Shown here piece after piece: positions 2,091 to 35,048 of a stretch of 37,736 nucleotides of DNA (position 1 is its first letter; every line of letters starts with the position of its first letter). Origin of the DNA: a virus; the IMG/VR virus record IMGVR_UViG_3300003894_000483, positions 1 to 37,736 of that record, one strand, 5' to 3'. The position numbers and the translations under genes were made by a program. The notes under the pieces are model-generated. The model ran no database searches and was not told the DNA's origin. It saw only the letters and a program-made list of their open reading frames with translations.

Positions 2091-4994
2091 ATGAAATTGC
2101 CTACATCGAGATTTAGAATCGGGATTGATCTTGGTACCAGCAACAGTGCTCTTTGCTATTTAGACCAGGAAGATCTTACAAATCAACTGCACTGTTTTGA
2201 AATTCCACAGTGGATTGGCAATGGTGAGTGGTATGATCTGAAGACCTTACCTTCTCATGCATTTTTATTGACCCAAGAAGAAAAACTTTCTGGCCGCTTT
2301 CAATTGCCTTGGTCCGAGGATTCTGCACCTGATTTAGCTACTGGAGAATGGGCTCGGCAACAGCAGGCGCTCCGACCTGGGCGAAATATTCATTCTGCGA
2401 AATCTTGGCTATGTTACCACAATTTAAATCCAGAAGCAGAGATTCTCCCTCAGAGTGACCAACCAGATCTCAAACGATATTCGCCACTTGCTGCGAGTTC
2501 GCTCTTTCTTCAGCATCTTAGAGATTCGTGGAATCACAAAATTGCCAAAGACAGAACCGAACTACGGCTGGAAGACCAAGAAATTGTGCTTACAGTTCCT
2601 GCCTCTTTTGATGAAATAGCCCGAGAGTTCACACTGCGTTCGGTCAAAATGGCAGGACTAAAAACCGTCACTCTGCTGGAAGAACCTCAAGCAGCCTTTT
2701 ACTCGTGGATTGCTGAAAATTTAGAGGACCGTGATTCCCCAAAAACATTATCAGATTATTTCAAAAACTCCGAAAATATTGTCTTAGTTGTTGATATCGG
2801 TGGTGGAACAAGCGATTTCAGCCTCGTCAAAGTAAAGATACCTGAAGATCCCAAAGAGAATCCTGAAATGGAACGTCTGGCTGTCAGTGATCACATCTTA
2901 CTGGGCGGGGATAATTTGGATTTAGCCCTAGCAGCACATGTTGAACAGCAACTGACAGGACAACAGAGAAAACTATCCCCCCGTCTTTGGGAGGCACTCA
3001 CAGCCCAATGCAGAAGGGCAAAGGAAATTCTTTGGACAACTGAACAGGATCAGTTTCCGATAACGATTGCTGAACAAGGGAGCAGACTGATTGGAAAGAC
3101 AAAGAACTATATTCTTTCTCAAAATGAATTCGAACAAATCATCTTGGATGGCTTTTTCCCTGAACTGGACTGGGATGCTGATTTACCAGCCAAGAAGATT
3201 CAGGGATTGCGAACCCTTGGACTCCCATACGCCAGTGACACCGCAATTACTCGACATCTGCTCAGATTTTTAAGAAATCACTGCTCCCAAATTGAACCAG
3301 AACGCTTTCCTACTCACGTACTTTTCAACGGTGGAACACTCGAGCCTTCTTTGCTTCAGAAGAAAATCCGGCGTCTACTGGAAAAATGGGGATCTCAACT
3401 AGGAGAAACTGAGAAAAGTGTTCAGGTGCTTCCTCAAGAGCAAATGCAGTTGGCTGTTGCCAAAGGGGCAACTTATTACCATCTTGTTCGTGAGGGGAAA
3501 GGTCTGCAAATCAAAGGAGGGAGCGCTCGAAGCTACTATGTCTCACTGCTGGTTGATGGAATGGAGCCGGGTTCACAAAACCTAGCTTGGTTGTGCATCT
3601 TGCCCCAACAAGCCTCTGTCGAGGAATATCAGGAAGTACAGGGACACACCCTTGAAATTGCTATAAATCAACCTGTTCAATTTGAGATGAGGGCCTCCAG
3701 TATCCGAACGCAGGACCACTTGGGTGATATAATCCAAATTGAACAAGAAGAATTGGAACGTGATTTTACTGAACTTCCACCGATTCAGACATTTCTGGGA
3801 ATAGACCGCAATCGGCTTCCCAAAAAAGCCACAACACTGGGAATCCAACTCCGAGCAAAGTTGAATGAGATAGGGACCCTTAGCCTAGAGTGTGTTAACC
3901 ACCACTTAAGTGAGGAGTGGCGCCTTGAATTCCGTATCCGAGAATCTGCACCAGAGGTAATTCAATCAGATCACAGCATCACTGTTGATAATCAATGGGA
4001 ACCTCCTAGCAATTGGGATGATGTTCAGAGGACTCTGCAAAGCTGGTTTGGTAAGAGAAGCCGCCAAGAAAATCTGCCCTTGAGCCTAAACAAACAACTG
4101 GAGGCATTACTGGGCCCACGATCTGGTTGGCCACTCCCACTTTTGCGAGAAATTGCTGATCAATTACTCAGTGGAATGGGAACTAGAGTTCGTTCTGTAA
4201 ACCATGAAATGAATTGGCTGAAAATCTGTGGATTCTGCCTGCGTCCAGGATTTGGATTTCCAAATGATGAGCTACGAATCAAGCAACTAACAGAATGGAT
4301 TGCTCGTGGACCACAGTTTCGAAAAGAGAGAAACGTAGAAGTTGAGTGGTGGATTTTTTGTCGCCGTGTAGCCGCAGGGCTACCTTCACAAACCCAAGAA
4401 GCCATCTTCAAATCTTTGGAAGACCGATTGGTCGAAGGGAATCGTAAGCCAAGGTCCTCGAAACTCCCAAAAGGGAAAAGACCCCCATCTATTTCTCCCA
4501 GCGCTCTCAACGAATTGTGGTTGTTACTTAGCAACCTAGAATCAGTACCACACGAGAAGAAGAGAACTTATAGTAAACAGTTACTCGATCGCTTGGAAAA
4601 GGGGCAAAGCACAGGGATTGAGGCACTCTGTCTAGCCCGCTTTGGTTCACGTGAATTAGTGCATGCAGGTTCTTTGTATGTGATTCCTCCAAAAGAAGTT
4701 GAATCTTGGATACAAAGTTTGCTTGAAATCCATCATCAAAAACCGATTCAAGAGCTACCATTGGTTTTGACTAAGCTGGGGCAGTTTACTGGAGACCGAC
4801 ACAGAGATATTTCTCCAGATCTTCGAAAAGAACTGATTGCTTTCGTAGAATCCTATGATGAAGATGGTAGCCTTGTACGATTACTTACCGAAGAAGCAAA
4901 GAGAGATACTGTGGAGATTCTAGAAAGCAACTTGCAGAACTGGTTGTTTGGTGATGAACTACCGATAGGTTTGAAATTAGCAAAATCATCCTGA
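2091..4994 (+). CDS. Hsp70/DnaK-related protein with DUF3731-type C-terminal extension
   Basis: Hsp70-family ATPase, 967 residues, much longer than DnaK (about 640). The N-terminal half has the actin-fold nucleotide motifs: phosphate-1 IGIDLGTSNSA (residues 10-20), phosphate-2 VVDIGGGTSDFS (about 233-244) and an adenosine motif VLFNGGTLEP (about 410-419). The C-terminal half has no DnaK substrate-binding domain or EEVD-like tail. It resembles the long helical extension of bacterial DnaK-related proteins described as DUF3731, whose role is unknown. No DnaJ or GrpE gene is adjacent. The ATG at 2091 has only a weak purine-rich tract upstream. It is followed after 29 bases by the acetyltransferase gene on the same strand. 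A chaperone-like function is inferred from the ATPase domain only. Confidence 0.88.
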   Translation: MKLPTSRFRIGIDLGTSNSALCYLDQEDLTNQLHCFEIPQWIGNGEWYDLKTLPSHAFLLTQEEKLSGRFQLPWSEDSAPDLATGEWARQQQALRPGRNIHSAKSWLCYHNLNPEAEILPQSDQPDLKRYSPLAASSLFLQHLRDSWNHKIAKDRTELRLEDQEIVLTVPASFDEIAREFTLRSVKMAGLKTVTLLEEPQAAFYSWIAENLEDRDSPKTLSDYFKNSENIVLVVDIGGGTSDFSLVKVKIPEDPKENPEMERLAVSDHILLGGDNLDLALAAHVEQQLTGQQRKLSPRLWEALTAQCRRAKEILWTTEQDQFPITIAEQGSRLIGKTKNYILSQNEFEQIILDGFFPELDWDADLPAKKIQGLRTLGLPYASDTAITRHLLRFLRNHCSQIEPERFPTHVLFNGGTLEPSLLQKKIRRLLEKWGSQLGETEKSVQVLPQEQMQLAVAKGATYYHLVREGKGLQIKGGSARSYYVSLLVDGMEPGSQNLAWLCILPQQASVEEYQEVQGHTLEIAINQPVQFEMRASSIRTQDHLGDIIQIEQEELERDFTELPPIQTFLGIDRNRLPKKATTLGIQLRAKLNEIGTLSLECVNHHLSEEWRLEFRIRESAPEVIQSDHSITVDNQWEPPSNWDDVQRTLQSWFGKRSRQENLPLSLNKQLEALLGPRSGWPLPLLREIADQLLSGMGTRVRSVNHEMNWLKICGFCLRPGFGFPNDELRIKQLTEWIARGPQFRKERNVEVEWWIFCRRVAAGLPSQTQEAIFKSLEDRLVEGNRKPRSSKLPKGKRPPSISPSALNELWLLLSNLESVPHEKKRTYSKQLLDRLEKGQSTGIEALCLARFGSRELVHAGSLYVIPPKEVESWIQSLLEIHHQKPIQELPLVLTKLGQFTGDRHRDISPDLRKELIAFVESYDEDGSLVRLLTEEAKRDTVEILESNLQNWLFGDELPIGLKLAKSS

Positions 4995-5023
4995 AAAACA
5001 GTCATGATTCTTCTCAGTTAGTT

Positions 5024-5959
5024 ATGCAAACAGAGTTACGACTTCGGAAGGCAGTGGATGCCTTACTGGACTCCTATCATAGTCATCCCGAAATTCAGAG
5101 CATTGGCTGCTCTGGCTTGCCTGCTCGAGAGAGCATCGTCCAGTTGGCCAATGATCTACAGGTTTTGCTGTTCCCGGGTTTGCTCAGGCAAGAACAACTT
5201 GATGCCATCAGTTTACCTTATTGGTTAGGTCAAAAAAGCGCCTCAATCTTCTACAGACTACGTGACTACCTGGAGCAAGTGATCTGCTGGCAAAGCAGAC
5301 AGGAGGGATTACCCCAGCCACCAGCAGGCGCCTGTAGTGAAAGAGCAGAAGAAATTTCTCTCAACTTGCTCGAAACACTTCCGGAAATGAGAGAAGTTTT
5401 GGCTGAAGACGTCGAAGCCACCTTTGCAGGTGACCCGGCCGCCAATGATCGTAAGGAAATCGTTCTGGCCTACCCAGGAATACACGCCCTCAGCATTTAC
5501 CGGATTGCCCACTTCCTCCACAACTACCAAATCCCGCTAATGCCACGGATTCTCAGTGAGCATGTCCACTCATTGACTGGAATTGATATCAATCCAGGTG
5601 CCCGGATTGGACGTGGTGTGATGATTGACCACGGAACTGGCATCGTTATTGGTGGTACCGCGGTGATTCACGACCAAGTGCGTATTTACCAAGGGGTAAC
5701 ACTTGGTGCATTCAGTCCAATACAGCATAAGAATGAACCACACCTCAAACGACACCCAACTATTGAGCGTGAAACCATTATCTACGCTGGCGCTACGATT
5801 CTAGGGGGCAATACTGTTGTGGGGGCCCGTTCAATCATTGGTGGTAATGTATGGCTAACTCATAGTGTACCTCCAGATAGCCGAGTCTATATTCAAGAAC
5901 CTGGTCAGCAGCGTACTGAAGTTCGTGCTGGGTTAGAGATGAGACCTACAGGAACCTGA
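5024..5959 (+). CDS. cysE: Serine O-acetyltransferase (CysE/EpsC type)
   Basis: Makes O-acetylserine from serine and acetyl-CoA, the precursor for cysteine synthesis. Protein of 311 residues: a helical N-terminal half of about 180 residues, then a left-handed parallel beta-helix of hexapeptide repeats. The catalytic region reads MIDHGTGIVIGGTAVI, matching the Asp-His signature of the family, and it is followed by the VTLGA and ILGGNTVVGA coils. The length and the extended N-terminus fit the longer EpsC/SrpH-like branch rather than enteric CysE (273 residues). The gene follows the Hsp70-like gene after 29 bases and precedes clpS by 110 bases. No strong Shine-Dalgarno sequence is visible before the ATG. 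Confidence 0.9.
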   Translation: MQTELRLRKAVDALLDSYHSHPEIQSIGCSGLPARESIVQLANDLQVLLFPGLLRQEQLDAISLPYWLGQKSASIFYRLRDYLEQVICWQSRQEGLPQPPAGACSERAEEISLNLLETLPEMREVLAEDVEATFAGDPAANDRKEIVLAYPGIHALSIYRIAHFLHNYQIPLMPRILSEHVHSLTGIDINPGARIGRGVMIDHGTGIVIGGTAVIHDQVRIYQGVTLGAFSPIQHKNEPHLKRHPTIERETIIYAGATILGGNTVVGARSIIGGNVWLTHSVPPDSRVYIQEPGQQRTEVRAGLEMRPTGT

Positions 5960-6069
5960 ACGACAAATCCCTCAGCTTTAAACAGTATACTATTGAATTT
6001 ATTTAGGAATTCATCTGCATATTTCTGGGATTATCACAAAGGAAATTTCCCGGTAAGCCAAGAACAAGA

Positions 6070-6378
6070 ATGAGTCAGTTTAAGCCCCAGGAAGACCTCG
6101 TCACACTGACGAAACAGAAACTCAAACCACCGGTTCAGTTTAAAGTCCTACTACATAACGATGACTACACCACAATGGATTTTGTGGTACGTGTTTTAGA
6201 GGCGGTCTTCCACAAAACGGCTGACGAAGCGATTCAGATTATGTTACAGGTCCACAAGACTGGTGTCGGTATCTGCGGCGTCTACTCCTATGAGGTTGCA
6301 GAAACCAAAGTTGAAGCTGTTCATGAGATGGCTCGTCAAAACGAGTTTCCTCTCAAAGCAAGTATGGAAGAAGTTTGA
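6070..6378 (+). CDS. clpS: ClpS, N-degron adaptor of ClpAP
   Basis: Adaptor that recognises N-degron substrates and delivers them to the ClpA unfoldase. Protein of 102 residues, the normal family length. A flexible N-terminal tail of about 24 residues precedes the conserved core: FKVLLHNDDYTTMDFVV, a degron-pocket signature, then the long helix with MLQVHKTGVGICGVYSYEVAETKV. It lies 17 bases upstream of clpA, the usual clpS-clpA pair. Here the partner clpA is broken, so an intact ClpAP cannot be encoded by this locus as assembled. Confidence 0.96.
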   Translation: MSQFKPQEDLVTLTKQKLKPPVQFKVLLHNDDYTTMDFVVRVLEAVFHKTADEAIQIMLQVHKTGVGICGVYSYEVAETKVEAVHEMARQNEFPLKASMEEV

Positions 6379-6395
6379 TCTGACAGGAATCCCAT

Positions 6396-7517
6396 ATGTT
6401 CACGAGAGATTTAGAAATGTGCTTGATGGCTGCACAAAGTGAAGCCAAGGATCGACGCCATGAGTACCTTTGCGTGGAGCACATTCTTTATGCCCTATTG
6501 CACAATGACAATGGGGTAAGAATTATTAGAAGTTGTGGAGGCAACGTTGATCGAATCAAAGAAGATCTGGAAGAATTTTTTGATCAACAAGAAACCATGC
6601 GAGAAGAGGGATCCAATCCTCAACAAACCAGAGCCGTTCAACGTGTTCTCCATTTAGCAATCATGCACGTTAATAGTTCTGGGAAGGCATCTGCCGACGT
6701 TGGGGACATCCTTGTGGCAATTCATCGAGAATCCCAATCATATGCTTCCTATTTTCTGCAGAAAGAGGGCATCACGAGGCTCGATTTGCTGAATTACATC
6801 TCACATGGAATTGCTAAGGTAGCTGTTGAGGATGAAGAAGAGAACCACAATTTTGACAGTACAGACGAAGAAGAAAGCTCCCAGGGACGTGGGGAGCAGG
6901 ATGCCCTCAAACACTACACCACAAACCTAACAAAGCTTGCTGAAGAAGATCGCATTGACCCCTTGATTGGACGCGATGCGGAGTTAGACCGAACAATCCA
7001 GATTCTCTGTAGACGTCGGAAAAATAATCCTATCTACGTAGGTGATCCTGGGGTTGGTAAAACCGCCATTGCGGAAGGTCTTGCCTTACGCATATTCCGT
7101 CAAGAGGTTCCTGAACTTCTGGAAGGATCTGAGATTTATGCGCTTGATATCGGGGCACTCTTAGCTGGTACAAAATTTCGTGGGGACTTTGAGCAACGCA
7201 TCAAAGCAGTTCTTAAATCTTTGCAGCAGAAGCCAAAATCTATCCTATTCATCGATGAGATTCACACGATCATTGGAGCTGGAGCAACTAGTGGGGGATC
7301 AATGGATGTCTCGAACTTGCTCAAGCCAGCTCTAGCGAAGGGTGAAATTCGATGCATAGGTTCTACAACCTATGATGAATACAAAAAACTTTTCGAAAAA
7401 GACCGAGCTCTATCCAGACGCTTTCAGAAGATAGACATCGATGAGCCCTCAATTGAGGAGACCTTCTTAATTCTCAAGGGACTAAAAAATCCGTACTCGT
7501 CCCGACCCTTAGTTTAA
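6396..7517 (+). pseudogene. clpA: clpA, truncated: N-domain and first half of D1 only
   Basis: ATPase subunit of the ClpAP protease. The open frame runs 373 residues, but ClpA homology ends at about residue 364 (base 7487), while intact ClpA has about 750. Visible are the N-terminal double-repeat domain (residues 1-145), an acidic linker, and D1 with Walker A GDPGVGKT (about 216-223), Walker B ILFIDEIH (about 283-290), and the sensor and arginine-finger region GSTTYDEY and LSRRFQ. After EETFLILKGLK the expected D1 C-domain and the whole of D2 are missing; the last nine codons are phage sequence read antisense. This is either a real interruption by phage DNA or a false join in assembly. The start is the ATG 17 bases after clpS. 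Confidence 0.93.
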
Positions 7518-8205: not shown

Positions 8206-11200
8206 TAGTAACCCCTCGCTTGCCAGTCTACTTTCCTGACCACCTGTGTGCCGTTTGAGTCAAACGCCCGGACAGTGAAAAGATCGTATGCCACATTTGT
8301 TCTCACCTTTAAAGTGTCCCCCGTATTTCCCCCAATAATATTAGCCGTAACAGAAGGCCACTCAGAAAAAGAGCCCCCGGTATCTAAGTTGCCTGTTACC
8401 GGAGTTGTTGATGTTGTTAATGTGCCCGAAGTTTGCTTTTTTATAGCGCTCACCTCATAACGGACAGTGTCTAAATACGTTAGCGCGTTAGCATCTCCAT
8501 AAAACTCGATATAAAAATAGTAGCTAAAAACATTGTCGGCAAAATAAATATTGTCCGGCTGGTTTTGGTAAATTATACCCTGGTCAGTGACAAATCGAAC
8601 CCGTAAATCGAGATTACCGCTATCCACCGCCGTTTGATTGAATGTAATCTGAGCGGCTAAGTTTTTTGTTCCTACGGCGCCGTGTATTGTTGTGGGGAAT
8701 GTGAGCTTTCCCGCGACAACCGCATTGCTCACCAGGGGCTCAATAAAATAAGTATTCCCAGAATCAATCTGATCTTGAACGGAATTCCATCCATTTGCTG
8801 CATGAACATCTACCCAGGATGTTGAGTCGGCCCCAAGGTAATATCTTTCTGGACTGTGCCAATCTTCAATAAACGCCGTCCCTGATACCGTGGGTGGAAC
8901 CGGGGCGCTGGAAATTAGCGTATACTCAAATGGGGAATCGGAATAAAACTCAGTAGACCCGCTTGTGCCTTCGTTTCCACCAAAGTCTACAGCAGTTATA
9001 AAAACCTTATGAACTTCACTTGATTTCTCTAAATATTCGTATTCCAAGCCCTCAATAGTCCCTATTCTCGTGGCGTCAGAAAAACTTGACCCCTCCGTCC
9101 CCCGGTATATAACGTAATACCTGACCCCGTGCTCTGTTCGCGGGCTAGAAAACGCGGGCGCTTCCCAAGACAGCCGGACTCTCCCCAATGCGCTTTGGGC
9201 GCTCACTTCCCCCGGTGCACCTAAAGCGGCAATGGTAACACTTTCACTATCTTCGGTATTCGAATAGTTCCCTGTTGTGTCTATCGCCTTTATGTAATAC
9301 GTATAGCTCCCCGCCGTAAGTGCATCAATCGTTAATGTTGTAGTGTCTACAATATCAACAACAGTACCCGCTGCCCATGAAGCGCCTTGACGTATCTCAT
9401 ACTTCCATAAATCCGGCACTGTCACTTTGTCCCAGGAAAGCAATAAGCCGCGATCCCGCACAGTCGCGGTCAAGTTCGCAACATCTGGAGGAGGATTCTG
9501 CTTGCCCTGCACTGTGTGCGTGGTTGATACCCAACCGGAAACCTCGCCAACTTTTGATATATAGCGCACTTGGAAATCGTACTCGACGCCATCCTCTAAA
9601 CCCGCAATCCGTATCTGGTTCTGTTCTGCGCTAACAGGCGCCGTGTGTTGATGTGGCCCATTGGTGCTGTCTGTCCTGCGGTGTCGCGCGCCTATGGTCG
9701 CAGGTGCTACGCCCTGAGTTACAAACGGCTTTAGATACAGTATCGCGCCGGAGTCAAGTGAACCGTCGCCGTTGCGCTCTAATGCGAACTCGTCAGATAC
9801 AATAGAGTCTATTGTCGGGTCGTCTGGTATCTGCCGTATCTGTTCCGGTGTTAATGTGATCGTTGTTGTATATGATGGTATTGCTTCGGTGTCTGCCGTA
9901 TATACCCCGCTATCATAAGGTACACACGATACTTCCGCGATGAAGTCGCCCACATATCTAATTGAAGATATAACAGCGTTTACAGCTTCCGCGTTCTCCG
10001 CGCCTACTAAAACAAGATCGCCTACTTCAAAAAGCGTATCGACTGGTTTTGGTGCTGATATCGTAAAAAGGGTATTCTCTGCTGTCGACGCCACTGTCAC
10101 TGTCACTGTTGTTATAGTGCCGTCTTTGTCTCTTGCTGTTGCTGTATAGTTGGTCGACACAACAGTTGAGATAGGTCGATCAATTGTAAAATCGTCGACA
10201 TTACCTGATGAGGTATTCCTGCTTACTATCCTAGCACTCCCTAGCCCTATACTTGACGCGTCATGCTGGAGTTTTACTCTATCGCCCCTGTTAGCTGAAA
10301 GAGCGTCCAGGGTTGCTCTAAACACCCATGTTTCGGGTCGCAATACCCCAACAGCCAGAAAGTAGCGCGCTAATCTGAAAACATTGTCTGAACTGACCAC
10401 CCCGGGCATTTCCATTTCTTCAAATAGAGTCGCTGCAGTGTCCCCCCCGGATCCATCTGCGTTGTACCCGTCGCGGTATACTGTTCGGATCTCCTCCAGG
10501 TAACTTTCGTCCTCATTGCGAAAACGCACTTTCAGCGCGTGCGGAACTTCCCTATAAGTCATCCCGCCCTTGAATGATCCCGCGACAATATTACGCGGCC
10601 CAAACATCTGTACAGGGGTAGCCTGTGCCGTGTCTTGTATAACGCTGTGTAAATCATCCACCATACCCCGCGACGCCCTGCCCGTGGACGCTATCAAGTC
10701 GAGGAGGTCGGCCTGTCGCATATTCCCTTCAACGGTATAATCGAACTGGTAGCCCTTGGCGTCGCAGAAGTCGGCCCATGCTTTTATTTGTGTAATGTTC
10801 AGCCTGTTGTCATTAATCGCGTTTTTAGCGGCCCCGCCCCTTAGCACTTGAGCGTATGCCCATGCAGGGTTTCTTGTTACGTTCTGACTCCATGCTACGC
10901 CGTCGTGTGTTGGTATTTCCGTTTCCACAATACAGTTTAGTTGGTCTATCACGCCGTTGAGTTGGTCTGATGCCTTGATTCTTAGCGCCAGGGTTCTAAT
11001 GTTAGAGTTAGTCACTGCGGAGCCATTACGTACTGAGCGCAGCGCTGACCATGTTGCGTCATCGCTTACCTCAGAGGCAGAGTTGTCAGCTGTTGTTCTT
11101 CTTATGCGTATATCGTAAGTATCAGACGCTAGACCATGAAGGGAATAAGTACGCCTTACTATCTGCGTGCTTGCGCCTGTGATCGTCTTTTTAACGGAAC

Positions 11201-13196
11201 TAAAGCGTTCAATATCTGTTACTGATAACCCGCTCACTAACCCCCCTATGGGGTATACTTTGCCATCTGCGGAGGCCAGTGTTACCTCTGTTTGTGCAGA
11301 CGACAGGCTATCTAGCGCGCTTGTGTTAAACGGTGCGCGTCTTCTGATTTTATAGAATGTATCGGACGCTGCCCCGCCGGATACCCCCCCGCCTAAATAT
11401 GCAAAGCTAGGATCGGTATCATCATACCCGATAGAAAACATGGTGCGCGCCTCTGGGAGTGTGTATGCGTCTGTCGCGACCTGAAAAAGCGGGATACTGG
11501 AGGTAAATGCTATCTGGACAAACATAATGTCGTCTGTTTCCGTACCCGCTGCCGTTTCCCCGCCGACTACAGCAAGCCAAGAGGCCTGATTGTTTTGCAT
11601 CGGGTCGGGAAGAATGGAGCATCCAAAACGCTTTCTTTTTGTAGTTGCGTTTGTGCCCGTCTGGTATGTGCGCCTTCCCGTTCCCCATGTGTCTGCGCTT
11701 ACGCGGTACTCGTAAAGTGCGTCTGTTGCTGCGGATCCATCCCAGCCCCCGTATATCAATATGACCTCAGTGGAGGTTGGTTTGACGAAATACGCTGCCC
11801 CCATCTTTGATAGTGCGTCGGGCATAGCTGTGAATGTTGATGTTGTGTCGGCTACTGTGTCGTACCTTTCCACACTATCAAGAATTGTCCCGCCTGTGGT
11901 TTCCCCGCCGAAAATATAGATATACGTTCCCACTGCGACAGCGGAATGGTATCGCCTTGCTGTTGTTAATGTGGCGCTTTTAGTTGTCCATGTCTCGGCT
12001 GATGTATCAAACGCCTCGATGGTGTTAAGGTACGCCGTCCCGCCGTTTACAGTAGTTCCCCCTATCACGTACAGGGTTCCGCTGATGTTTGTGGCACTGT
12101 GCCCGTTTCTAGCTGTGCCCATCTTGTTAGATACTACCTGCGGGTCGCCCGTGTGCTTAGATAGAGGATACCAGGTGGAGCCCCCGTTGCTTTTATATTC
12201 AATCTCAAAATCTACAGAAACGCTTGATTTTGTGCCGTCTGTTGTGGAGAACTGGACAAGTGCGGGAAATGTGATATCAACTAGTATCCCTGTAGTGTTC
12301 GCCGTTGTTGTCTGCGTTTGCCATCCAGCAGCCTGTGTTAATGCCACAGCTAATGCTTGCTCGTCTATGTTGGGAAACCATCTATTCTGTTCTGCTGTAC
12401 TCATATCAGCAAAAGGTACGACGTATTCCATCTCAAAATCAGAATAGTTCGTTATCGCCGTGTTGCCGATTTTGATATCGGAGATATGTAAAGTATGGCT
12501 GGAATCCTGGAAGCCGACAGCAAAAAGCATCCTTAAATACTGCTCGTTGTCTATGATCTCCGTAAACGGTTTAGTAGCAAGCGGAGGGAACATCTTTGTT
12601 TTTCCAAACGTCACAGGTACTGCGCCGTAGGGATTGATTCTATTTTGTACCCCCGTAATGGATTGTATAGGGGTGTCCTGCGGAGTACTTGGCAGCCGCT
12701 GGTTGGGCGGTTTAACAAAATGCTTATTGGCTAAGTATCCCGCGTACCCTATAGCAAGATTTCCAGCAACTAAAGCAGCCGTACCTGATAGCCCTAGAAA
12801 CGTACCACCCGCGCCTATATGCGCTGTTAGGGCTGCCCCGGCTCCAAGGGTGAGCGCCCCTATAAGTAAGGCTGCAGGGTTCTTATCGCCCCCGCCTTGT
12901 GGTACTACGTTGATCGTTGTTATGGTTCCAGGTGATGGATACACACGCGCCCAATAGCTCTTTGGTACTTTGGCGTCGTTGATCTGTACACACACGAAAG
13001 GCCAGAAATCCTGCGGGATATTTTCCAGCACTAGATCAAGAACGCTTTTGGGCTCCGTAAATTCCCTTGTATAGTGCTCCGTTTTAAACGGTTTCGCGGA
13101 TACTGTCAGATACCTTGTGGCGCATATAAGCGCGGTTTCTTGACTTCCATTTTCCGCTGTCGAGTCTCTCAATTTTAACGCCTGATCTTTCTGCAT
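8205..13196 (-). CDS. Tail-tip protein (lambda J/TipJ-like) with inserted Kelch propeller
   Basis: Central tail-tip, host-specificity protein of 1663 residues. Residues about 30-160 resemble lambda I-type assembly proteins, with a Gly/Ala-rich hydrophobic stretch at 107-158. Residues about 165-345 begin the J-like core (QSITGVQNRINPYGAVPVTF, then QYLRMLFAVG). Residues about 355-668 are a Kelch-type beta-propeller with six Gly-Gly blade signatures (VIGG, IFGG, IYGG, VVGG, YLGGG, PIGG). The core resumes at TYDIRIRRTT and TWSALRSV, continues to about 1110, and is followed by fibronectin-III-like repeats (about 1130-1320 and 1325-1410) and a beta-rich C-terminus. The first ATG overlaps the NlpC gene by 113 bases and has a weak TAGGT-like site, so the true start may lie further in. 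Confidence 0.9.
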   Translation of the reverse strand: MQKDQALKLRDSTAENGSQETALICATRYLTVSAKPFKTEHYTREFTEPKSVLDLVLENIPQDFWPFVCVQINDAKVPKSYWARVYPSPGTITTINVVPQGGGDKNPAALLIGALTLGAGAALTAHIGAGGTFLGLSGTAALVAGNLAIGYAGYLANKHFVKPPNQRLPSTPQDTPIQSITGVQNRINPYGAVPVTFGKTKMFPPLATKPFTEIIDNEQYLRMLFAVGFQDSSHTLHISDIKIGNTAITNYSDFEMEYVVPFADMSTAEQNRWFPNIDEQALAVALTQAAGWQTQTTTANTTGILVDITFPALVQFSTTDGTKSSVSVDFEIEYKSNGGSTWYPLSKHTGDPQVVSNKMGTARNGHSATNISGTLYVIGGTTVNGGTAYLNTIEAFDTSAETWTTKSATLTTARRYHSAVAVGTYIYIFGGETTGGTILDSVERYDTVADTTSTFTAMPDALSKMGAAYFVKPTSTEVILIYGGWDGSAATDALYEYRVSADTWGTGRRTYQTGTNATTKRKRFGCSILPDPMQNNQASWLAVVGGETAAGTETDDIMFVQIAFTSSIPLFQVATDAYTLPEARTMFSIGYDDTDPSFAYLGGGVSGGAASDTFYKIRRRAPFNTSALDSLSSAQTEVTLASADGKVYPIGGLVSGLSVTDIERFSSVKKTITGASTQIVRRTYSLHGLASDTYDIRIRRTTADNSASEVSDDATWSALRSVRNGSAVTNSNIRTLALRIKASDQLNGVIDQLNCIVETEIPTHDGVAWSQNVTRNPAWAYAQVLRGGAAKNAINDNRLNITQIKAWADFCDAKGYQFDYTVEGNMRQADLLDLIASTGRASRGMVDDLHSVIQDTAQATPVQMFGPRNIVAGSFKGGMTYREVPHALKVRFRNEDESYLEEIRTVYRDGYNADGSGGDTAATLFEEMEMPGVVSSDNVFRLARYFLAVGVLRPETWVFRATLDALSANRGDRVKLQHDASSIGLGSARIVSRNTSSGNVDDFTIDRPISTVVSTNYTATARDKDGTITTVTVTVASTAENTLFTISAPKPVDTLFEVGDLVLVGAENAEAVNAVISSIRYVGDFIAEVSCVPYDSGVYTADTEAIPSYTTTITLTPEQIRQIPDDPTIDSIVSDEFALERNGDGSLDSGAILYLKPFVTQGVAPATIGARHRRTDSTNGPHQHTAPVSAEQNQIRIAGLEDGVEYDFQVRYISKVGEVSGWVSTTHTVQGKQNPPPDVANLTATVRDRGLLLSWDKVTVPDLWKYEIRQGASWAAGTVVDIVDTTTLTIDALTAGSYTYYIKAIDTTGNYSNTEDSESVTIAALGAPGEVSAQSALGRVRLSWEAPAFSSPRTEHGVRYYVIYRGTEGSSFSDATRIGTIEGLEYEYLEKSSEVHKVFITAVDFGGNEGTSGSTEFYSDSPFEYTLISSAPVPPTVSGTAFIEDWHSPERYYLGADSTSWVDVHAANGWNSVQDQIDSGNTYFIEPLVSNAVVAGKLTFPTTIHGAVGTKNLAAQITFNQTAVDSGNLDLRVRFVTDQGIIYQNQPDNIYFADNVFSYYFYIEFYGDANALTYLDTVRYEVSAIKKQTSGTLTTSTTPVTGNLDTGGSFSEWPSVTANIIGGNTGDTLKVRTNVAYDLFTVRAFDSNGTQVVRKVDWQARGY

Positions 13197-29561: not shown

Positions 29562-30353
29562 TCAAAACGGCAGAGTGTCTGCCATCTCTATATCCTTATG
29601 TAAATCACATACCCGCTCTGGGTGTTCTATGTCCTTCTTGTGCTGGAGACAGTGCCCCCTGCTCAAATGCTCACAGTTCAAACACGCCTTCTTCGGTATA
29701 TTCAATTCAATCGACGCATGGCAATACCGGCGGTATTCACAAAACGTGCAGAGCGGATGTGATCCAGTCTCGTCGATCTTCTCCGGTTCCCCGCAGTTTG
29801 CCAGTGCCCTTGCGCGCTCAATGGCTTGTGTCGCCTTTGCGCGGTTGTAGGGTACTGTCTCTACGTGTATCTCGGAATCATCCTTACACATCACTAAAAA
29901 GCGCCCCTGGTGTAAGAGGAGAAGGTGCATATATACCTGCATCTGTACGAAGTACTTTGGTTCTACTTCTTCAACGCCCTTGTCTTTAAAGAGTTTAAAC
30001 CGGCGCTTATTAGCTGATTTAATCTCTAAGAGTTCGCGCTTTCCGTCGATCCTCAATACCCCGTCTGCGTGCCCCCTGATGGGCGGTAGAGTGACGGGCA
30101 CCTGCTCATCCTCTACCAGTCCACCAAGTGCCCTTATAATCATCTCTTCGATATCATGGCCCTGCTGAAAGATGGCAAACACCCTTCCAGGGTGGTCATC
30201 TGACTTGTAGGGGTTCGAGGATTCCCCTTTAAACCCCCTGTAGTTGAGCCACACATACCGGCTGCACTCATGACCCATCATGGACGCGCCCATATATAAG
30301 CGCGGCTCCTGGGTCTTGTTTAAAGAGCTGAATATAACGTCACGAAGATCCAT
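29562..30353 (-). CDS. Cas4/RecB-like PD-(D/E)XK nuclease with iron-sulfur cysteines
   Basis: Single-strand DNA exonuclease of the PD-(D/E)XK superfamily, 263 residues. Nuclease motifs: GHADGVL with Asp97, LLEIKSANK with Glu110 and Lys112, and QMQVY (Gln137-Tyr141). One N-terminal Cys (Cys30 in HECSRYVW) and the C-terminal C-x2-C-x5-C set (Cys202, 205, 211) match the 4Fe-4S arrangement of Cas4 and AddB. A second Cys group follows (Cys224, 227, 235, 249). It stands next to the ssDNA-binding and Sak4-like genes, so a role in phage recombination is likely. No CRISPR array is visible, so an adaptation role is not supported. Confidence 0.88.
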   Translation of the reverse strand: MDLRDVIFSSLNKTQEPRLYMGASMMGHECSRYVWLNYRGFKGESSNPYKSDDHPGRVFAIFQQGHDIEEMIIRALGGLVEDEQVPVTLPPIRGHADGVLRIDGKRELLEIKSANKRRFKLFKDKGVEEVEPKYFVQMQVYMHLLLLHQGRFLVMCKDDSEIHVETVPYNRAKATQAIERARALANCGEPEKIDETGSHPLCTFCEYRRYCHASIELNIPKKACLNCEHLSRGHCLQHKKDIEHPERVCDLHKDIEMADTLPF

Positions 30354-30354
30354 T

Positions 30355-30807
30355 TTACTGATTCTCCCATGGCATTTTTATTTCCGCAGCCTGTTCGACA
30401 GTCAAGCCTTTCTCCTTCTTCTCTTCTACGGCGCTTACTAGCGCCCCTGTCTCCGGCTTCATGAAAGCTAAAATCCGCGACTTCGTGCCGTAGGAGTCCT
30501 CCTCAACGGAGGTTTTAATCGTAAGCTGCTTGCCTTGTAGGCGCTCAATTTCGAGTTTATCGCCCAATCCTGTAGCGTGTGCGACAGCCTTTAATCTTTC
30601 CATCGCTACCTGGAGTCCAAGAGTAAAATAGTCGCGCACCATGTAACGTTTGAAATCCGCGCCCGTTGGCTTGAAATCAACTACTACCATCTTGTTTCCA
30701 GACTTGCTTTCTTTTAATTCCACTTTCGTAATTGCCACTGGATAAGTACCCGCCGGTAACGTCGGGAACTCCTCTTGCAGTTCGTACTTTGACAGATCAA
30801 TTTCCAC
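30355..30807 (-). CDS. Probable single-strand DNA-binding protein (DUF669-like)
   Basis: Protein of 150 residues with the pattern FPTLPAGTYPVAITKVELKESKSGNKMVVVDFKPTG, an OB-fold-like start seen in phage DUF669 proteins that act as single-strand DNA-binding partners of Sak-type recombinases. The acidic C-terminal portion (VEEKKEKG, AAEIKMPWENQ) may serve for protein contacts. It starts at a GTG with GGAGG six bases upstream and overlaps the ATPase gene by 11 bases. Confidence 0.78.
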   Translation of the reverse strand: MEIDLSKYELQEEFPTLPAGTYPVAITKVELKESKSGNKMVVVDFKPTGADFKRYMVRDYFTLGLQVAMERLKAVAHATGLGDKLEIERLQGKQLTIKTSVEEDSYGTKSRILAFMKPETGALVSAVEEKKEKGLTVEQAAEIKMPWENQ

Positions 30808-31510
30808 TGTCTACCTCCATTATCTTGTTAAATACATTTTCTAAACTTGGCTTTTCAACCTGGGTCAGTTTACCAGAGCGGTCTTTTGCAACTACATGGC
30901 CCCGCGTGGTATCCGTCGGACTTGTAATAAATACCCGCACGTCTTCACCGTCTACGGGCTCGATATCCATGAAAAACACCAAATCAAATAGTGCGGGAAG
31001 GCGCTCACCTATCCTGCCTTGTAAGTCGGGCTTGATAAAACGTCGGCCCATGTCGTCGGCGTCCACTTTCGCAAGTGCGGACATGACTACGGAATACGAC
31101 GTTAAATCACGAAACGCTTTCACCATGTGAAGCATCTTATCCCCGTACTCACCCCAGAGTTTAAATGTGTCTTTCTCAGAATACCTGCCGGAGTCTTTCA
31201 ACCCCTCCACGCACCTTTGGCCGATCTCCGTTAAAGAGTCCAAAAACACCCATTGGTATCTGTCCTGGTATTCCTTTGTTCGTAGTTGTTCGAACGCTGT
31301 GCGCAGATCGTCAAAACTGGTGAGTTCGAAACCTTCCACCTGTTTGTTTGAAACAAGATCGCGAACACATAGAAGGCCGCTTTCCGCACTGAGTACACAC
31401 GCCCTCTGTTCGTTCGGGATTGTGCGCAGGAGAGATGTTTTACCTACCCCGGGTTCACCGTACACAAGCACGGCTATCCTATCTGTTGACTGTGTTGTAA
31501 TAGGCTTCAT
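30797..31510 (-). CDS. Sak4-like RecA-fold ATPase (phage recombinase)
   Basis: RecA-fold NTPase of 237 residues. Walker A GEPGVGKTS lies near residues 18-26, then ERACVLSAESGLLCVRD, Walker B WVFLDSLTEIG (near 88-98), and MVSALAKVDADDMGRRFIKPDLQG toward the end. This is the AAA_24/Sak4 pattern found in phages with a DUF669-type ssDNA-binding protein and a PD-(D/E)XK nuclease, as here. It probably promotes annealing or strand exchange during replication. The start is coupled to the upstream gene by GAGGTGGATGAATGA, the same sequence that links the two preceding genes. Confidence 0.85.
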   Translation of the reverse strand: MKPITTQSTDRIAVLVYGEPGVGKTSLLRTIPNEQRACVLSAESGLLCVRDLVSNKQVEGFELTSFDDLRTAFEQLRTKEYQDRYQWVFLDSLTEIGQRCVEGLKDSGRYSEKDTFKLWGEYGDKMLHMVKAFRDLTSYSVVMSALAKVDADDMGRRFIKPDLQGRIGERLPALFDLVFFMDIEPVDGEDVRVFITSPTDTTRGHVVAKDRSGKLTQVEKPSLENVFNKIMEVDSGN

Positions 31511-31749
31511 TCATCCACCTCTTTTCCGCGTGTAAATATCTCGTCAATAAATATACGCATTTCCTTGTAAACTATCTCAGCCGTGTCCGGGTTGTTTGCC
31601 TGGAGTGCACGGAGAACATGAAAAAGAATTCCGCTTACAACCTCCGCGCCCCCGGTTTCAGAGGCAAAGTTTATAAATGACTGTATGTCATCCGGCAGCT
31701 GCACGTTTTGCGGTAAATCGTCCATTTTATGAAATAGCGGTTGGTTCAT
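31507..31749 (-). CDS. Small acidic protein of recombination operon, unknown
   Basis: Protein of 80 residues, mostly helical (DIQSFINFASETGGAEVVSGILFHVLRALQ, then IVYKEMRIFIDEIF), ending KEVDE. No motif is recognised. Its start uses GAGGTGGATGAATGA, inside the end of the preceding gene, so the two are likely translated together. Position suggests an accessory to the Sak4-like ATPase. Confidence 0.7.
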   Translation of the reverse strand: MNQPLFHKMDDLPQNVQLPDDIQSFINFASETGGAEVVSGILFHVLRALQANNPDTAEIVYKEMRIFIDEIFTRGKEVDE

Positions 31750-32126
31750 TCATCCACCTCTACAGTGATCTGGGGTGCGCCGTCTTTCACTTCAACGACT
31801 TCCATTAATTCCGGTGTCGTGTGTAAAAACGTGTTAAATGCTTTTGCATCCACCTTGTACGCAGTTTTGAAAACCTCGCTTAGTACGTCTGCTGGTACGG
31901 ATCCTTTTAGCTCGTATGGATCCCTGCCCTTGCGTACCTGGTGAGTTCTGGAGCGCCTCATTGTCATGGTGCAGCGTGTAAACTGCTCCCTGGCACTGGG
32001 CTTTAAATTTAGGTAATATTGTGCAAGTTGGGAAGTTAGTTCCCGGCGTATTTTCGCCAGCTCCCCCTCTTTGCGTTTCAGCTCCGCTATTTGCAGGACT
32101 GCTGATTCTCTTTCGTGTACTTCCAT
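31746..32126 (-). CDS. First gene of leftward early operon, coiled-coil protein
   Basis: Protein of 126 residues from the ATG at 32126, chosen because AAAGGAGG lies six bases upstream; a longer open frame to 32300 would run through the promoter. The N-terminal 45 residues form a charged helix (AELKRKEGELAKIRRELTSQLAQYYLNLK); the middle is basic (MTMRRSRTHQVRKGRDPY) and the end is beta-rich with VEVDE. A DNA-binding or replication accessory role is possible. It is the first gene behind the leftward promoter and so probably expressed earliest on this arm. Confidence 0.78.
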   Translation of the reverse strand: MEVHERESAVLQIAELKRKEGELAKIRRELTSQLAQYYLNLKPSAREQFTRCTMTMRRSRTHQVRKGRDPYELKGSVPADVLSEVFKTAYKVDAKAFNTFLHTTPELMEVVEVKDGAPQITVEVDE

Positions 32127-32167
32127 CAAATTTCCTCCTTTGTGGGTGTACTTTTTCGATATTAGAG

Positions 32168-32196
32168 AATGTAACAAATATATATTAAAGTGACAA
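32168..32196 (-). promoter_or_regulatory. Leftward early promoter
   Basis: On the minus strand TTGTCA (32191-32196) and TACATT (32168-32173) are 17 bases apart. The -35 box lies inside the palindromic operator, so binding there would block the promoter. It would drive the recombination operon. Confidence 0.55.
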
Positions 32197-32217
32197 CAGT
32201 CTTGTCGAAAATATATA
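32190..32217 (+). promoter_or_regulatory. Rightward early promoter
   Basis: GTGACA (32190-32195) and TATATA (32212-32217) are 16 bases apart; TATAAA two bases further is an alternative -10. The -35 box overlaps the operator. It would drive the repressor-like gene and the primase-helicase. Confidence 0.5.
32192..32206. promoter_or_regulatory. Palindromic operator between divergent promoters
   Basis: GACAA-N5-TTGTC, a perfect 15-base inverted repeat in the 125-base gap between the two divergent early operons. It overlaps the -35 boxes of both promoter candidates. The gene immediately to the right encodes a small helix-turn-helix protein, the natural ligand. One copy was found. Confidence 0.65.
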
Positions 32218-32251
32218 AAAATGTTATTTTTTTTGTATGGAGGTTTGTAAT

Positions 32252-32458
32252 ATGAACATTTTGAACAGTCTGGCGAAAGAACGCGGAGCGCCGGCGACAT
32301 TTATAGCCGAAAGGTTAAATATTCCCGCTGAAACTGTGCGCCGTCATCTGCGGGGGGAAACCACCCCAAGTGCCGACGCCATTCTTGCGTATGCTAATTT
32401 TTTCGGCGTTGAGGTAAGCACCTTAATTAGTCAAATTTACAAAAACGAGAAACGGTAG
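32252..32458 (+). CDS. Cro/XRE-type helix-turn-helix regulator
   Basis: Small DNA-binding regulator, 68 residues from the ATG at 32252. This start is preferred because GGAGG lies nine bases upstream; the ATG at 32237 would place that site inside the gene. The helix-turn-helix is clear: APATFIAERLNIPAETVRRHLRG, followed by TTPSADAILAYANFFGVEV. The whole protein is one XRE domain without a dimerisation or cleavage region, more like Cro than CI. It probably binds the palindrome at 32192-32206 and balances the two early promoters. Confidence 0.85.
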   Translation: MNILNSLAKERGAPATFIAERLNIPAETVRRHLRGETTPSADAILAYANFFGVEVSTLISQIYKNEKR

Positions 32459-32465
32459 GACTTAT

Positions 32466-34340
32466 ATGGAAGTGAGTGAAAAATGCCGCAATGCTGCAAT
32501 AGAGTATATAGAGTCCGGCGTCTGTGCTGTGCCGTGCCGAAGAGACAAAAAGCAGACATCTTTACCAAAAACCACACACCTGCAGAAACGGCTGCCGACA
32601 GAAGAGGAAGTCGATACCTGGGACTGGCCCAATGTGGGAATTATCACAGGCAAGATATCGGGTTTAGTTGTTGTCGACATAGACTCCGACAAGGCCATGG
32701 CGACAATCAAAAAGCGCGGCCTGGAATTACCAGAAACCCCTATTTTCCAGCGCACAAGCAGGGGTTTTCACTTGTTTTATGCCCACCCTATGGACATGGA
32801 GTATAAGACGAAAGCTGGAATAGGCGGCGTAAGCGGTGTAGACGTTCGTGCTGATGGTGGATTTTTAGCTGTACACCCCTCTGTAATACATGAAGACGAC
32901 GGGACGTTGAAAACTTATGACATGGTGCAGGGGTGCCGATTTGATGAACTACCCCTGCCGCCTGAATGGGTTTTAGAGCCGCGCAATCCCCACCAATCGC
33001 AGGTCATTGACTTATCCGGCGTCGGTAGGGCCCCGTCCTGGTATCACGGCGAATCCGGTATGCGTAATGATTCCATGTTTCGCCTGTGCTGCTCCTTGTT
33101 CTCCAAGGGGCACAGTGCGGAGGAGGTATACGCGTTGGCGCAGGGTGTTAATACCACATCCTACACACCGCCACTTCAGATCGAAGAAGTGCGCAGGTGT
33201 ATTGAGTCTGCGTCCAAGTATCGCGAGAACCCACTGGAGGCTACACCACAGGAAGAAGAAGGAGAGGTTACGGAGGAGTGGGAATTAGATGATCTTTCCG
33301 CGTGGAGGTTTTACATTGCTGAACGAAAGCCTCGTGAATGGCTCATCCCTGGACTACTTCCCAAGGTGAGGGTCGCCATTCTCGCGGGCCCCGGTGATCG
33401 CGGAAAAGGGTGGTTTTCAATTCAAATGGGCGTCGCTATGGCGTGCGGCACTCCTTTTATGGATCTTGAGATAGAGAATAAGAGGCGCGTGTTGATCATT
33501 AACCCGGAAGAAGAGTTTGACGATTATGTGGAGCGATTCTCTCCCTGTGTTCTTCGCCAGGTGGAACAACCGCCGGAACATAAAGAGGATTTAACTAAGA
33601 ACCTACATATACCCGCGTTTGATGAAATGATAGGTGTACAGCTTTATCCTGCCGACAGTTCTAAGCTCTATAGACGCATAATGAAGGCAGTGGAAAGGTA
33701 TGGAAAATACGACTTAATCGTATTGGATCCATTCAATAAACTTTTTTCCCTGGAGGAGTCCAATTCTCAGGAGTCGGCGACGGCTATCATAAAGGCATGT
33801 GATCGCTTATCGAAAGATACCGGAGCAACAATTCTTATCACTATGCACACGAACAAAGAAGGAGCTAAAAATCAATCTTCCAGCGCCGTTTCTGTTCTTG
33901 GTTCCGTTGCCTTCACTAACGCCGCAAGGCACGTTTTACAACTGGAACAACTTACAGAACCAGAGTTGAAGCGGTTCGGGTTGGAAAAGTCTGATGGGTG
34001 GAGGTTTGGCCGCCTTGAGATTTCCAAGGGTAATTATATACCCGCGCACTCTAAGCGAATCTGGTTTCTAGAGAAATCACGCGAAGAGGCTACGGCGGGA
34101 ACCTGGGGCATTATCAGTCCTGAGTATCTGCGGGATAAAATGGAAGATGTAAAGGCAGAGGTTCTTGCGTTACCTGTGGGTGTGAAAAAGTCGCAAGCCA
34201 TGGAAACAATACGTAAGGCTAACGATCTGTCGAAAAGAGCCACAAAAGCACTCTTTGACGGGCTGGAAATAGCTGGAGATTTAACATGGGAGAGGATTGG
34301 CAATTCTAACGTGCTATCAACAAAATCCAAAGGAACCTGA
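32466..34340 (+). CDS. Primase-helicase: Prim-Pol domain fused to RepA-like ATPase
   Basis: Bifunctional replication protein, 624 residues. Residues about 8-160 are a Prim-Pol domain: VVVDIDSDKA with the metal-binding DID at 71-73, GFHLFY with His102, and VDVRADGGFLAVHPS. Residues about 190-255 resemble a primase C-terminal module (NDSMFRLCCSLFSKGHSAEEVYALA). The ATPase starts near 293 (WLIPGLLPKVRVAILAGPGDRGKG) and has Walker B LIVLDPFNKLF and a helicase-like ILITMHTNKEG. Walker A reads GPGDRGKG, with Gly where Ser/Thr is normal after Lys314. The ATG follows the regulator gene by seven bases. It should open and prime the phage origin. Confidence 0.88.
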   Translation: MEVSEKCRNAAIEYIESGVCAVPCRRDKKQTSLPKTTHLQKRLPTEEEVDTWDWPNVGIITGKISGLVVVDIDSDKAMATIKKRGLELPETPIFQRTSRGFHLFYAHPMDMEYKTKAGIGGVSGVDVRADGGFLAVHPSVIHEDDGTLKTYDMVQGCRFDELPLPPEWVLEPRNPHQSQVIDLSGVGRAPSWYHGESGMRNDSMFRLCCSLFSKGHSAEEVYALAQGVNTTSYTPPLQIEEVRRCIESASKYRENPLEATPQEEEGEVTEEWELDDLSAWRFYIAERKPREWLIPGLLPKVRVAILAGPGDRGKGWFSIQMGVAMACGTPFMDLEIENKRRVLIINPEEEFDDYVERFSPCVLRQVEQPPEHKEDLTKNLHIPAFDEMIGVQLYPADSSKLYRRIMKAVERYGKYDLIVLDPFNKLFSLEESNSQESATAIIKACDRLSKDTGATILITMHTNKEGAKNQSSSAVSVLGSVAFTNAARHVLQLEQLTEPELKRFGLEKSDGWRFGRLEISKGNYIPAHSKRIWFLEKSREEATAGTWGIISPEYLRDKMEDVKAEVLALPVGVKKSQAMETIRKANDLSKRATKALFDGLEIAGDLTWERIGNSNVLSTKSKGT

Positions 34341-34347
34341 CCGACAG

Positions 34348-34399
34348 GGTATCCCATGATTATATACCCCCTAAAGGGGGAATATATAATCTGGGTACC
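34348..34399 (+). repeat. Long hairpin (22 bp) after the primase gene
   Basis: The arms pair as GGTA/TACC, CCCA/TGGG, GATTATATA/TATATAATC and CCCCC/GGGGG around a TAAA loop, with only two single-base bulges and one AA bulge. It begins eight bases after the primase stop. No T-run follows, so it is not a standard terminator. It could be an RNA processing or attenuation element, or a replication-origin hairpin. Confidence 0.7.
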
Positions 34400-34401
34400 C
34401 T

Positions 34402-34426
34402 CCCCTTGTCCTTGAAGGGACAGGGG
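34402..34426 (+). repeat. Second hairpin next to the long one
   Basis: CCCCT-T-GTCC pairs with GGACAGGGG around a TTGAAG loop, nine pairs and one bulged base. It starts two bases after the long hairpin, so the two form a tandem structure in the 141 bases between the primase and the next gene. Confidence 0.55.
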
Positions 34427-34481
34427 CTAAAGGTCGGCTTAAGCGGTTCCGAAGGAAGACAAATTGAAAGAGAGGAGAATC

Positions 34482-34757
34482 ATGAATAACTACAATCAAA
34501 ACTACTGCGCAGCCATCTGGTCTGAAACTGTAAACGACATCGGAGAACAAAGCAGAGGAAAAGTCGGGGAACTCTTCGACACCCTCGCCCCGTTCAATAC
34601 GGAAATAGACCAGATAGAAATGAAAATCAGTACAGCAATCATAAAAGGTGATGTTGATACGACTAAGAAAAGGTGCTCTGAGTGGAAAAGAGCACACTTC
34701 TGGGCGTTATCTAAGTGCACCCCTACACAACCTACTGCAAAAAAGCAGGAGGGCTGA
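34482..34757 (+). CDS. Small unknown protein, first of rightward accessory run
   Basis: Protein of 91 residues from the ATG at 34482, with GAGGAG seven bases upstream; a TTG six codons earlier is less likely. The sequence is mixed helical (EIDQIEMKISTAIIKGDVDTTKKR, WKRAHFWALSKC). It shows no motif I recognise. The gene follows the tandem hairpins and precedes the Lar-like gene by three bases. Confidence 0.7.
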   Translation: MNNYNQNYCAAIWSETVNDIGEQSRGKVGELFDTLAPFNTEIDQIEMKISTAIIKGDVDTTKKRCSEWKRAHFWALSKCTPTQPTAKKQEG

Positions 34758-34760
34758 GAA

Positions 34761-35048
34761 ATGTATAAAAGGAAACCAATAAAACCGTGCCCAATGTGCA
34801 GAAATACGAAAAAACGGTTCACCTCGCACCAGGGTAAGCAGGGAACCAGAATCAGAATGGCGTGCGCAGGCTGCGGTGAGTTTTGGGTAGAGCACGCAGA
34901 AGGTGAGGATCTTATAGTTGTTTGGCAGAGGGTCGCGACTGATTACGAAATGAATGAAGCGAATAACAGCGGTTACAGCAAGGCCGAAGAACTTGAGGAA
35001 AGGCTGGAAGCTGTTGAAAAGGCGTTGGAAGAGAGGGGGAAGAAATGA
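34761..35048 (+). CDS. Lar-like zinc-ribbon protein with coiled-coil tail
   Basis: Protein of 95 residues. The N-terminal part has PIKPCPMCRNT and MACAGCGEFW, then AEGEDLIVVWQRVA, the layout of Lar-type restriction alleviation proteins. Residues 72-93 form a coiled coil (AEELEERLEAVEKALEER). In the Rac prophage Lar counters type I restriction by boosting methylation; a comparable role is a guess here since the similarity is only in the zinc ribbon. Its stop overlaps the next ATG. Confidence 0.65.
   Translation: MYKRKPIKPCPMCRNTKKRFTSHQGKQGTRIRMACAGCGEFWVEHAEGEDLIVVWQRVATDYEMNEANNSGYSKAEELEERLEAVEKALEERGKK

Follow-up and report, generated by a model that had tools for sequence, protein, structure and literature searches.

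What is the role of the large hairpins that stand directly behind the primase-helicase gene of this phage? The window, by which we mean the whole stretch of DNA analysed here, is a complete IMG/VR virus record of 37,736 bases. The first-pass annotation had noticed two tandem hairpins at this place and considered an origin of replication, an RNA processing site or an attenuator. Our comparison favours the first option: with a probability of roughly 0.7, judged from the sequences, the element would be the phage's replication origin, located directly behind the rep gene and acting as DNA.

The hairpin pair and its surroundings

The tandem hairpins proved to be real, with slight corrections to their start coordinates and pair counts (Table 1). 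For hairpin 1, first described as 22 bp from 34348, the tip was borne out, but the RNA fold contains 24 pairs with one 2-nt bulge and begins 5 nt beyond the Prim-Pol/AAA_25 gene, whose stop codon is 34338-34340. Hairpin 2 exists as well; instead of nine pairs after two bases it has 10 pairs and follows hairpin 1 after one base in the RNA fold. The annotation also stated that no T-run follows, and both the sequence and a terminator check agree with this.

Table 1. Features around the proposed origin (positions in the window)
Feature	Position	Strand	Description	Basis
HTH gene	32237..32458	+	small, Cro-like; directly upstream of rep	PF01381 HTH_3, E 1.8e-5, bits above curated cut-off
rep gene	32466..34340	+	Prim-Pol + PriCT_1 + AAA_25 (RepA-like helicase), 624 aa	Pfam
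Predicted junction	34332-34450		about 120 nt, enclosing both hairpins; outer closure predicted only	RNA and DNA folds
GACARGG copies	34343, 34404, 34419	+, -, +	three copies, span 34343..34425	motif search
Hairpin 1	34346-34401		main nested palindrome, top palindrome of the window; proposed origin core	
Tip	34367-34380		CCCCC 34367-34371, TAAA 34372-34375, GGGGG 34376-34380	read from sequence
Hairpin 2	34403-34426		inverted pair of GACARGG(G)	folds and motif search
Next gene	34482..34757	+	91 aa	family searches gave no match

Hairpin 1 reaches a palindrome score of 40 against 30 for the runner-up in the whole window, and the best scores in 40 dinucleotide shuffles of the window average 27 with a maximum of 37. 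The RNA fold of 34330-34440 has an energy of -57.1 kcal/mol (z -5.29), and the DNA fold of 34325-34460 gives z -5.96 on the plus strand and -5.81 on the minus strand; values as low were found in 0 of 200 shuffles in each of these cases. A feature absent from the annotation is that both hairpins lie inside a larger predicted junction. Its closing arms, seen in folding only, pair 34337-34342 with 34432-34437 (inner) and 34332-34337 with 34445-34450 (outer).

The only PDB sequence match of the rep protein is 1g8y, REGULATORY PROTEIN REPA (E 2.2e-7), which the A3 profile hits at E 1.3e-19 and which we take to be the RSF1010 RepA helicase. An SF3 helicase domain was not found by Pfam, which reports AAA_25 instead. 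The HTH gene occupies the position of the annotated cro of phage ct3Oc712 (L418, MW202867), and the order of genes flanking rep in the window (29562-32458) resembles that at 9573-12555 in this phage: exonuclease and Sak4-like/AAA genes on one strand, HTH and rep genes on the other, and a methylase gene further on. Identity between the two rep proteins is low. A search of viral contigs with the full rep protein yielded no relative, and blastn of 32400-34900 against phages yielded no match; a plasmid search gave one 23-nt match, rejected as being at chance level. The left side of the window (2091-7517) carries bacterial-looking genes (Hsp70/DUF3731 of 967 aa, a hexapeptide-transferase-like gene and a Clp_N + AAA gene). 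The record probably represents a prophage that includes flanking host DNA.

Recurrence behind RepA-type genes

When the 111-base hairpin region was compared with a phage collection by blastn, 26 to 27 bases matched in three Sortsnevirus-type phages (four records). These core matches lie immediately 3' of a RepA-like gene on the same strand, with AAA_25 confirmed in L004. The exact 18-mer TATACCCCCTAAAGGGGG occurs in 13 IMG/VR stretches, which we sorted by eye into seven sequence families, or eight counting the window. In three of the eight (the window, Sortsnevirus and L007) it stands behind AAA_25 rep genes; the distance is 141 nt in L007, whose Prim-Pol + AAA_25 gene is independent. The same core is also present in L008 (2313-2330), a phage contig that is unrelated, where it stands between a DnaG-like primase gene and a DnaD-like/DnaB-like helicase pair. 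The remaining places are near an integrase (L009/10/14), a terminase small subunit (L005/12/15/17) or genes without known function (L013, L016).

The letters alone mean little, as the generic shape TATACCCC-N6-GGGGTATA is no commoner in IMG/VR than its mirror control (49 against 61 loci), and we rejected an enrichment of the palindrome shape as such. Some of these palindromes lie beside an apparent tRNA gene end (L027, L041, L046, L048, L052, L031) and are possibly related to attachment sites. Elsewhere TTGAC is combined with TATACCCC-N6-GGGGTATAAT so that the palindrome fills a promoter-like spacer (L020, L022, L023, L026, L044), possibly as an operator. A separate hairpin, TATAGGGG-CGCAAG-CCCCTATA, was seen in 20 viral contigs (including L065, L067, L068, L074, L086 and L099), nearly always after a fixed stretch ending CTCTGCCAACTAGGG.

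Further phages were picked by protein similarity alone, after which the regions behind their AAA_25 genes were inspected. A recurring design emerged there: a nested palindrome with a pyrimidines-TWWA-purines tip, usually accompanied by iterons, with letters that differ between phages. It was found in Sortsnevirus/Murrayvirus, ct3Oc712-like, XX1924, CRP-831 and Serratia phages. Tips read CTCTCTCT-ATAT-AGAGAGAG or CCCCCCC-TTATA-GGGGGGG in Murrayvirus, ATATCCC-TATA-GGGATAT in MED16, CCCCCCCTC-TAGA-GAGGG in Smarc2, CCCCCCCTC-TAAA-GAGGGGGGG in Kc166B, ACACACC-TATA-GGGTGTGT in ct3Oc712, AACCC-TTTA-GGGTT in CRP-831 and GGCTCTC-TAAA-GAGAGCC in XX1924. Where L007 has CCCCC-TAAA-GGGGG, contig L423, whose protein is a 50% relative, has CTCTCTC-TAAA-GAGAGAG together with another iteron. 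Some phages of the first set lack such a tip: Dibbivirus (L135, L142), CRP-810 (L138) and Vibrio phage 1271 (L141).

All phages that went through the domain scan have the helicase domain. Their priming modules differ: the window, L007 and ct3Oc712 carry Prim-Pol, XX1924 carries TOPRIM, and in sortkaff, Smarc2 and CRP-831 the scan found neither of the two. Two annotations in this set deserve mention. A hypothetical CDS of ct3Oc712 (L418, 14428-14592) overlies the iterons and the palindrome and is probably not a gene, and the rep gene of phage IME_EC2 (L129, 1115-2802) is annotated as two overlapping CDSs, a split that is due to a frameshift or sequencing error.

To quantify the recurrence, rep ends were compared with control gene ends. 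Rep genes lacking a stop, 120 nt of downstream sequence or a length of 900 nt were dropped, which left 146 of 179. A strict rule, set in advance, asked for perfect arms of 5 or more, a loop of A and T only and pyrimidines in the 5' arm. Applied to 106 of the 114 listed rep ends, it caught 13 of the 72 ct3Oc712-like ends and 6 of the 34 in set A4. Many palindromes are asymmetric by one base at the tip, and some longer loops were skipped. The rule was replaced by a gapped stem score over the 200 nt behind the stop, with the 95th percentile of 462 control gene ends as threshold, which makes both the gapped-score test and the tip rule post hoc as far as the hairpins are concerned. The threshold is reached by 68 of 72 ct3Oc712-like ends, which are close relatives and hence not independent, and by 14 of 34 ends in A4; the other 20 fall below it.

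At 45% identity, 252 rep genes form 54 clusters; a strong palindrome (score of 25 or more) is present in at least half of the members in 20 clusters, and a strong palindrome with the CT-W-AG tip in 10. The controls were 1227 distinct gene ends from the same loci, which had not been inspected for tips when the rule was set up; a strong palindrome is seen in 124 of them and the tip in none. A tipped palindrome in the majority of members is absent from 44 of the 54 clusters, including the large CRP-810-like and genome-derived ones. The protein-found clusters alone, without the window, L007 and the Sortsnevirus/Murrayvirus cluster that came from the DNA match, give 8 of 51 against 0 of 1227 controls; the Fisher p of 3.7e-12 is a guide only, since the tip rule was written after the hairpins had been seen and clusters share ancestry.

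Pairing, iterons and competing explanations

The annotation had suggested searching for covariation in related phages, and this search found pairing that is kept while the letters change. In the ct3Oc712-like hairpins (A5) two-sided changes occur in 6 of 7 pairs, with 23 such cells against 7.3 in shuffles; in the Sortsnevirus/Murrayvirus hairpins (A6) they occur in 9 of 14 pairs, with 16 cells against 6.5. Both counts were equalled in 0 of 500 shuffles. A5 covers 26 of 37 distinct hairpins, derived from 72 loci with L380 removed beforehand, and the 11 outside it mostly have long asymmetric tips, a few being near copies of hairpins that were kept, so that the A5 counts are biased toward clean pairing. 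A6 consists of 7 hairpins of a 12-member cluster, the other 5 being mostly near copies.

One rival explanation is a palindrome that arose by chance or travels as a mobile sequence without any role. It would account for the exact 18-mer outside rep loci and for the lack of enrichment of the bare shape. Given that covariation exceeds at least 499 of 500 shuffles and that 10 of 54 rep clusters stand against 0 of 1227 control gene ends, we consider this explanation very improbable.

The element might also work as RNA, as a terminator, attenuator or processing hairpin ending the rep message. The stable RNA fold (z -5.29) and the position at a gene end are in line with this. However, no T-run is present, a search of Rfam 15 with the hairpin region produced no family at gathering score (only sub-threshold chance matches), and a T-rich tail follows just 7 of 44 distinct hairpins. 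Moreover, two closely related Sortsnevirus contigs carry the core in opposite orientations (TAAA in L382, TTTA in L383). The manner of change points the same way in part: RNA stems commonly pass through G-U steps during change, whereas in the A5 inner stem all 21 changed cells are two-sided, none is one-sided and there are no G-U intermediates, as would suit a DNA dyad more than an RNA stem. The A5 outer helix departs from the DNA-dyad pattern (11 one-sided cells), and A6 follows it only partly (4 in helix 2). Taken together, an RNA function appears quite unlikely, and of the three options offered by the annotation, RNA processing and attenuation found no support.

The iterons bear on a third explanation as well. 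A hexamer is repeated beyond shuffles (p < 0.05) at 31 of 41 rep ends, the window being included in the test, with up to 11 copies in about 200 nt. In all four complete genomes (ct3Oc712, sortkaff, CRP-831 and XX1924) the densest 6-mer cluster of the genome is at the palindrome. By eye, the outer arms of the palindromes resemble an inverted pair of iterons (GGTAAC, GGGACA, GAACAGAACA, GATACA, TGGTTCA, TGTATAAAA). The 200 nt of the window itself hold no significant iterons, as the maximum of 2 hexamer copies is reached by all shuffles. Its GACARGG copies, of which 3 out of 14 matches in the window fall inside these 83 bp, are possible degenerate iterons; upstream copies of AATATATAAT were dismissed as being at chance level. 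If iterons are essential, the initiator of the window uses other sites, perhaps the palindrome arms and hairpin 2.

This third explanation is an operator and not an origin: a dimer-binding palindrome that the rep or HTH protein would use to repress the rep operon or the small genes that follow. Dyad symmetry and two-sided changes suit any dimer site, an HTH gene lies just upstream of rep, and other TATACCCC-N6-GGGGTATA palindromes in IMG/VR overlap promoter-like boxes. Against this, the palindrome lies behind the rep gene, at a place where no promoter for the next gene is recognisable, and its outer arms and letters vary freely while the nested hairpin shape and the AT tip stay constant. Iteron clusters are, in addition, typical of replication origins. 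We therefore regard an operator as unlikely.

The origin reading is preferred because of the recurrence behind the same type of gene, the two-sided arm changes, the iterons located together with the palindrome in relatives, and the precedent of plasmid pRN1 discussed below. Observed directly are the palindrome and where it stands, its repeated occurrence behind AAA_25/RepA-type genes, its pairing with changing letters, and the iterons of the relatives. Several observations speak against an origin, among them that clear iterons are missing from the window, that the tipped palindrome is absent from most rep clusters, and that the 18-mer also occurs at places without rep genes. Cumulative GC skew, another check put forward in the annotation, gave a divided result: its minimum lies no more than some 3 kb from the element in the window and in XX1924, and elsewhere in the three other genomes.

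Related systems and a possible mechanism

The closest precedent, by analogy, is pRN1 of Sulfolobus. According to one study (PMC4234260), a 100-nt stem-loop behind the prim-pol-helicase gene orf904 is needed for replication and can be moved, its shape being conserved and its letters not; a stem-loop was noted by these authors in phage BIP-1 too. The window likewise has a prim-pol plus helicase gene immediately upstream with a large stem-loop directly behind it. Both systems combine a small regulator gene, a prim-pol-helicase rep gene and a stem-loop of about 100 nt within tens of nucleotides, and in both the structure outlasts the letters. They differ in that pRN1 has an SF3 helicase, a large loop and no iterons (PMC4234260), whereas our phages have an AAA_25/RepA-type helicase, a small AT tip and, in most relatives tested, iterons. 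Bordetella phage BIP-1 is similar in carrying its stem-loop 3' of a prim-pol-helicase gene (PMC4234260). The tip is not common to both, and we rejected the BIP-1-type stem-loop as the same element; in its relative BMP-1, a search within 300 nt for a compact palindrome (loop of 3-12, score of at least 16) found none.

A second parallel is oriV of RSF1010 (IncQ), for which two papers describe RepA, RepB', RepC and the ssiA/ssiB hairpins (PMC4434180, PMC4234260). The resemblance concerns a RepA-type helicase homologous to 1g8y, an AEP-type primase, short hairpins and, in relatives, iterons, the difference being a single fused protein in our case. The RepA-type helicase is present in the window; iterons of this type are found in most relatives tested and not in the window. 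The name RepA, shared by the RepA_N of satellite PLE and the RepA treated here, is presumably a coincidence. The PLE origin is described as bound at its iterons by the RepA_N initiation factor, and these iterons have inverted sub-repeats as in our phages (PMC7145576). Our literature search, which covered papers outside subscription, surfaced pRN1 and, in the text it reached, no description of the element in RepA-type phages; of four papers mentioning Sortsnevirus, two proved free of origin or hairpin terms in a term search.

If the element is an origin, replication might start as follows. An initiator, which could be the rep protein or the product of the adjacent HTH gene, would bind the repeats or the palindrome arms. 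The palindrome would then open or be extruded, so that the strands form AT-tipped hairpins at which the RepA-like hexameric helicase could be loaded. First primers may come from the phage primase domain; relatives that lack Prim-Pol may use a TOPRIM primase or one of the host. Owing to the dyad symmetry, loading on both strands would be possible.

More tentatively, and at slightly less than even odds, we propose a widespread and so far undescribed class of phage origins. In this class a RepA-type helicase would be loaded at an AT-tipped nested palindrome, in phages that prime with Prim-Pol or TOPRIM and in those that lack a priming module alike. Iterons would be swapped together with the arms, and specificity rewritten by exchange of iteron and arm letters, while the constant CT-W-AG tip would keep the hairpin geometry. 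To our knowledge, most phage origins are unmapped. With a design that is recognisable by its shape, position and tip behind RepA-type genes, one could predict the origins of many phages known from metagenomes. The design would also be a simple system in which to study the loading of a hexameric helicase at a DNA hairpin, and the co-evolution of initiator and origin by iteron swapping.
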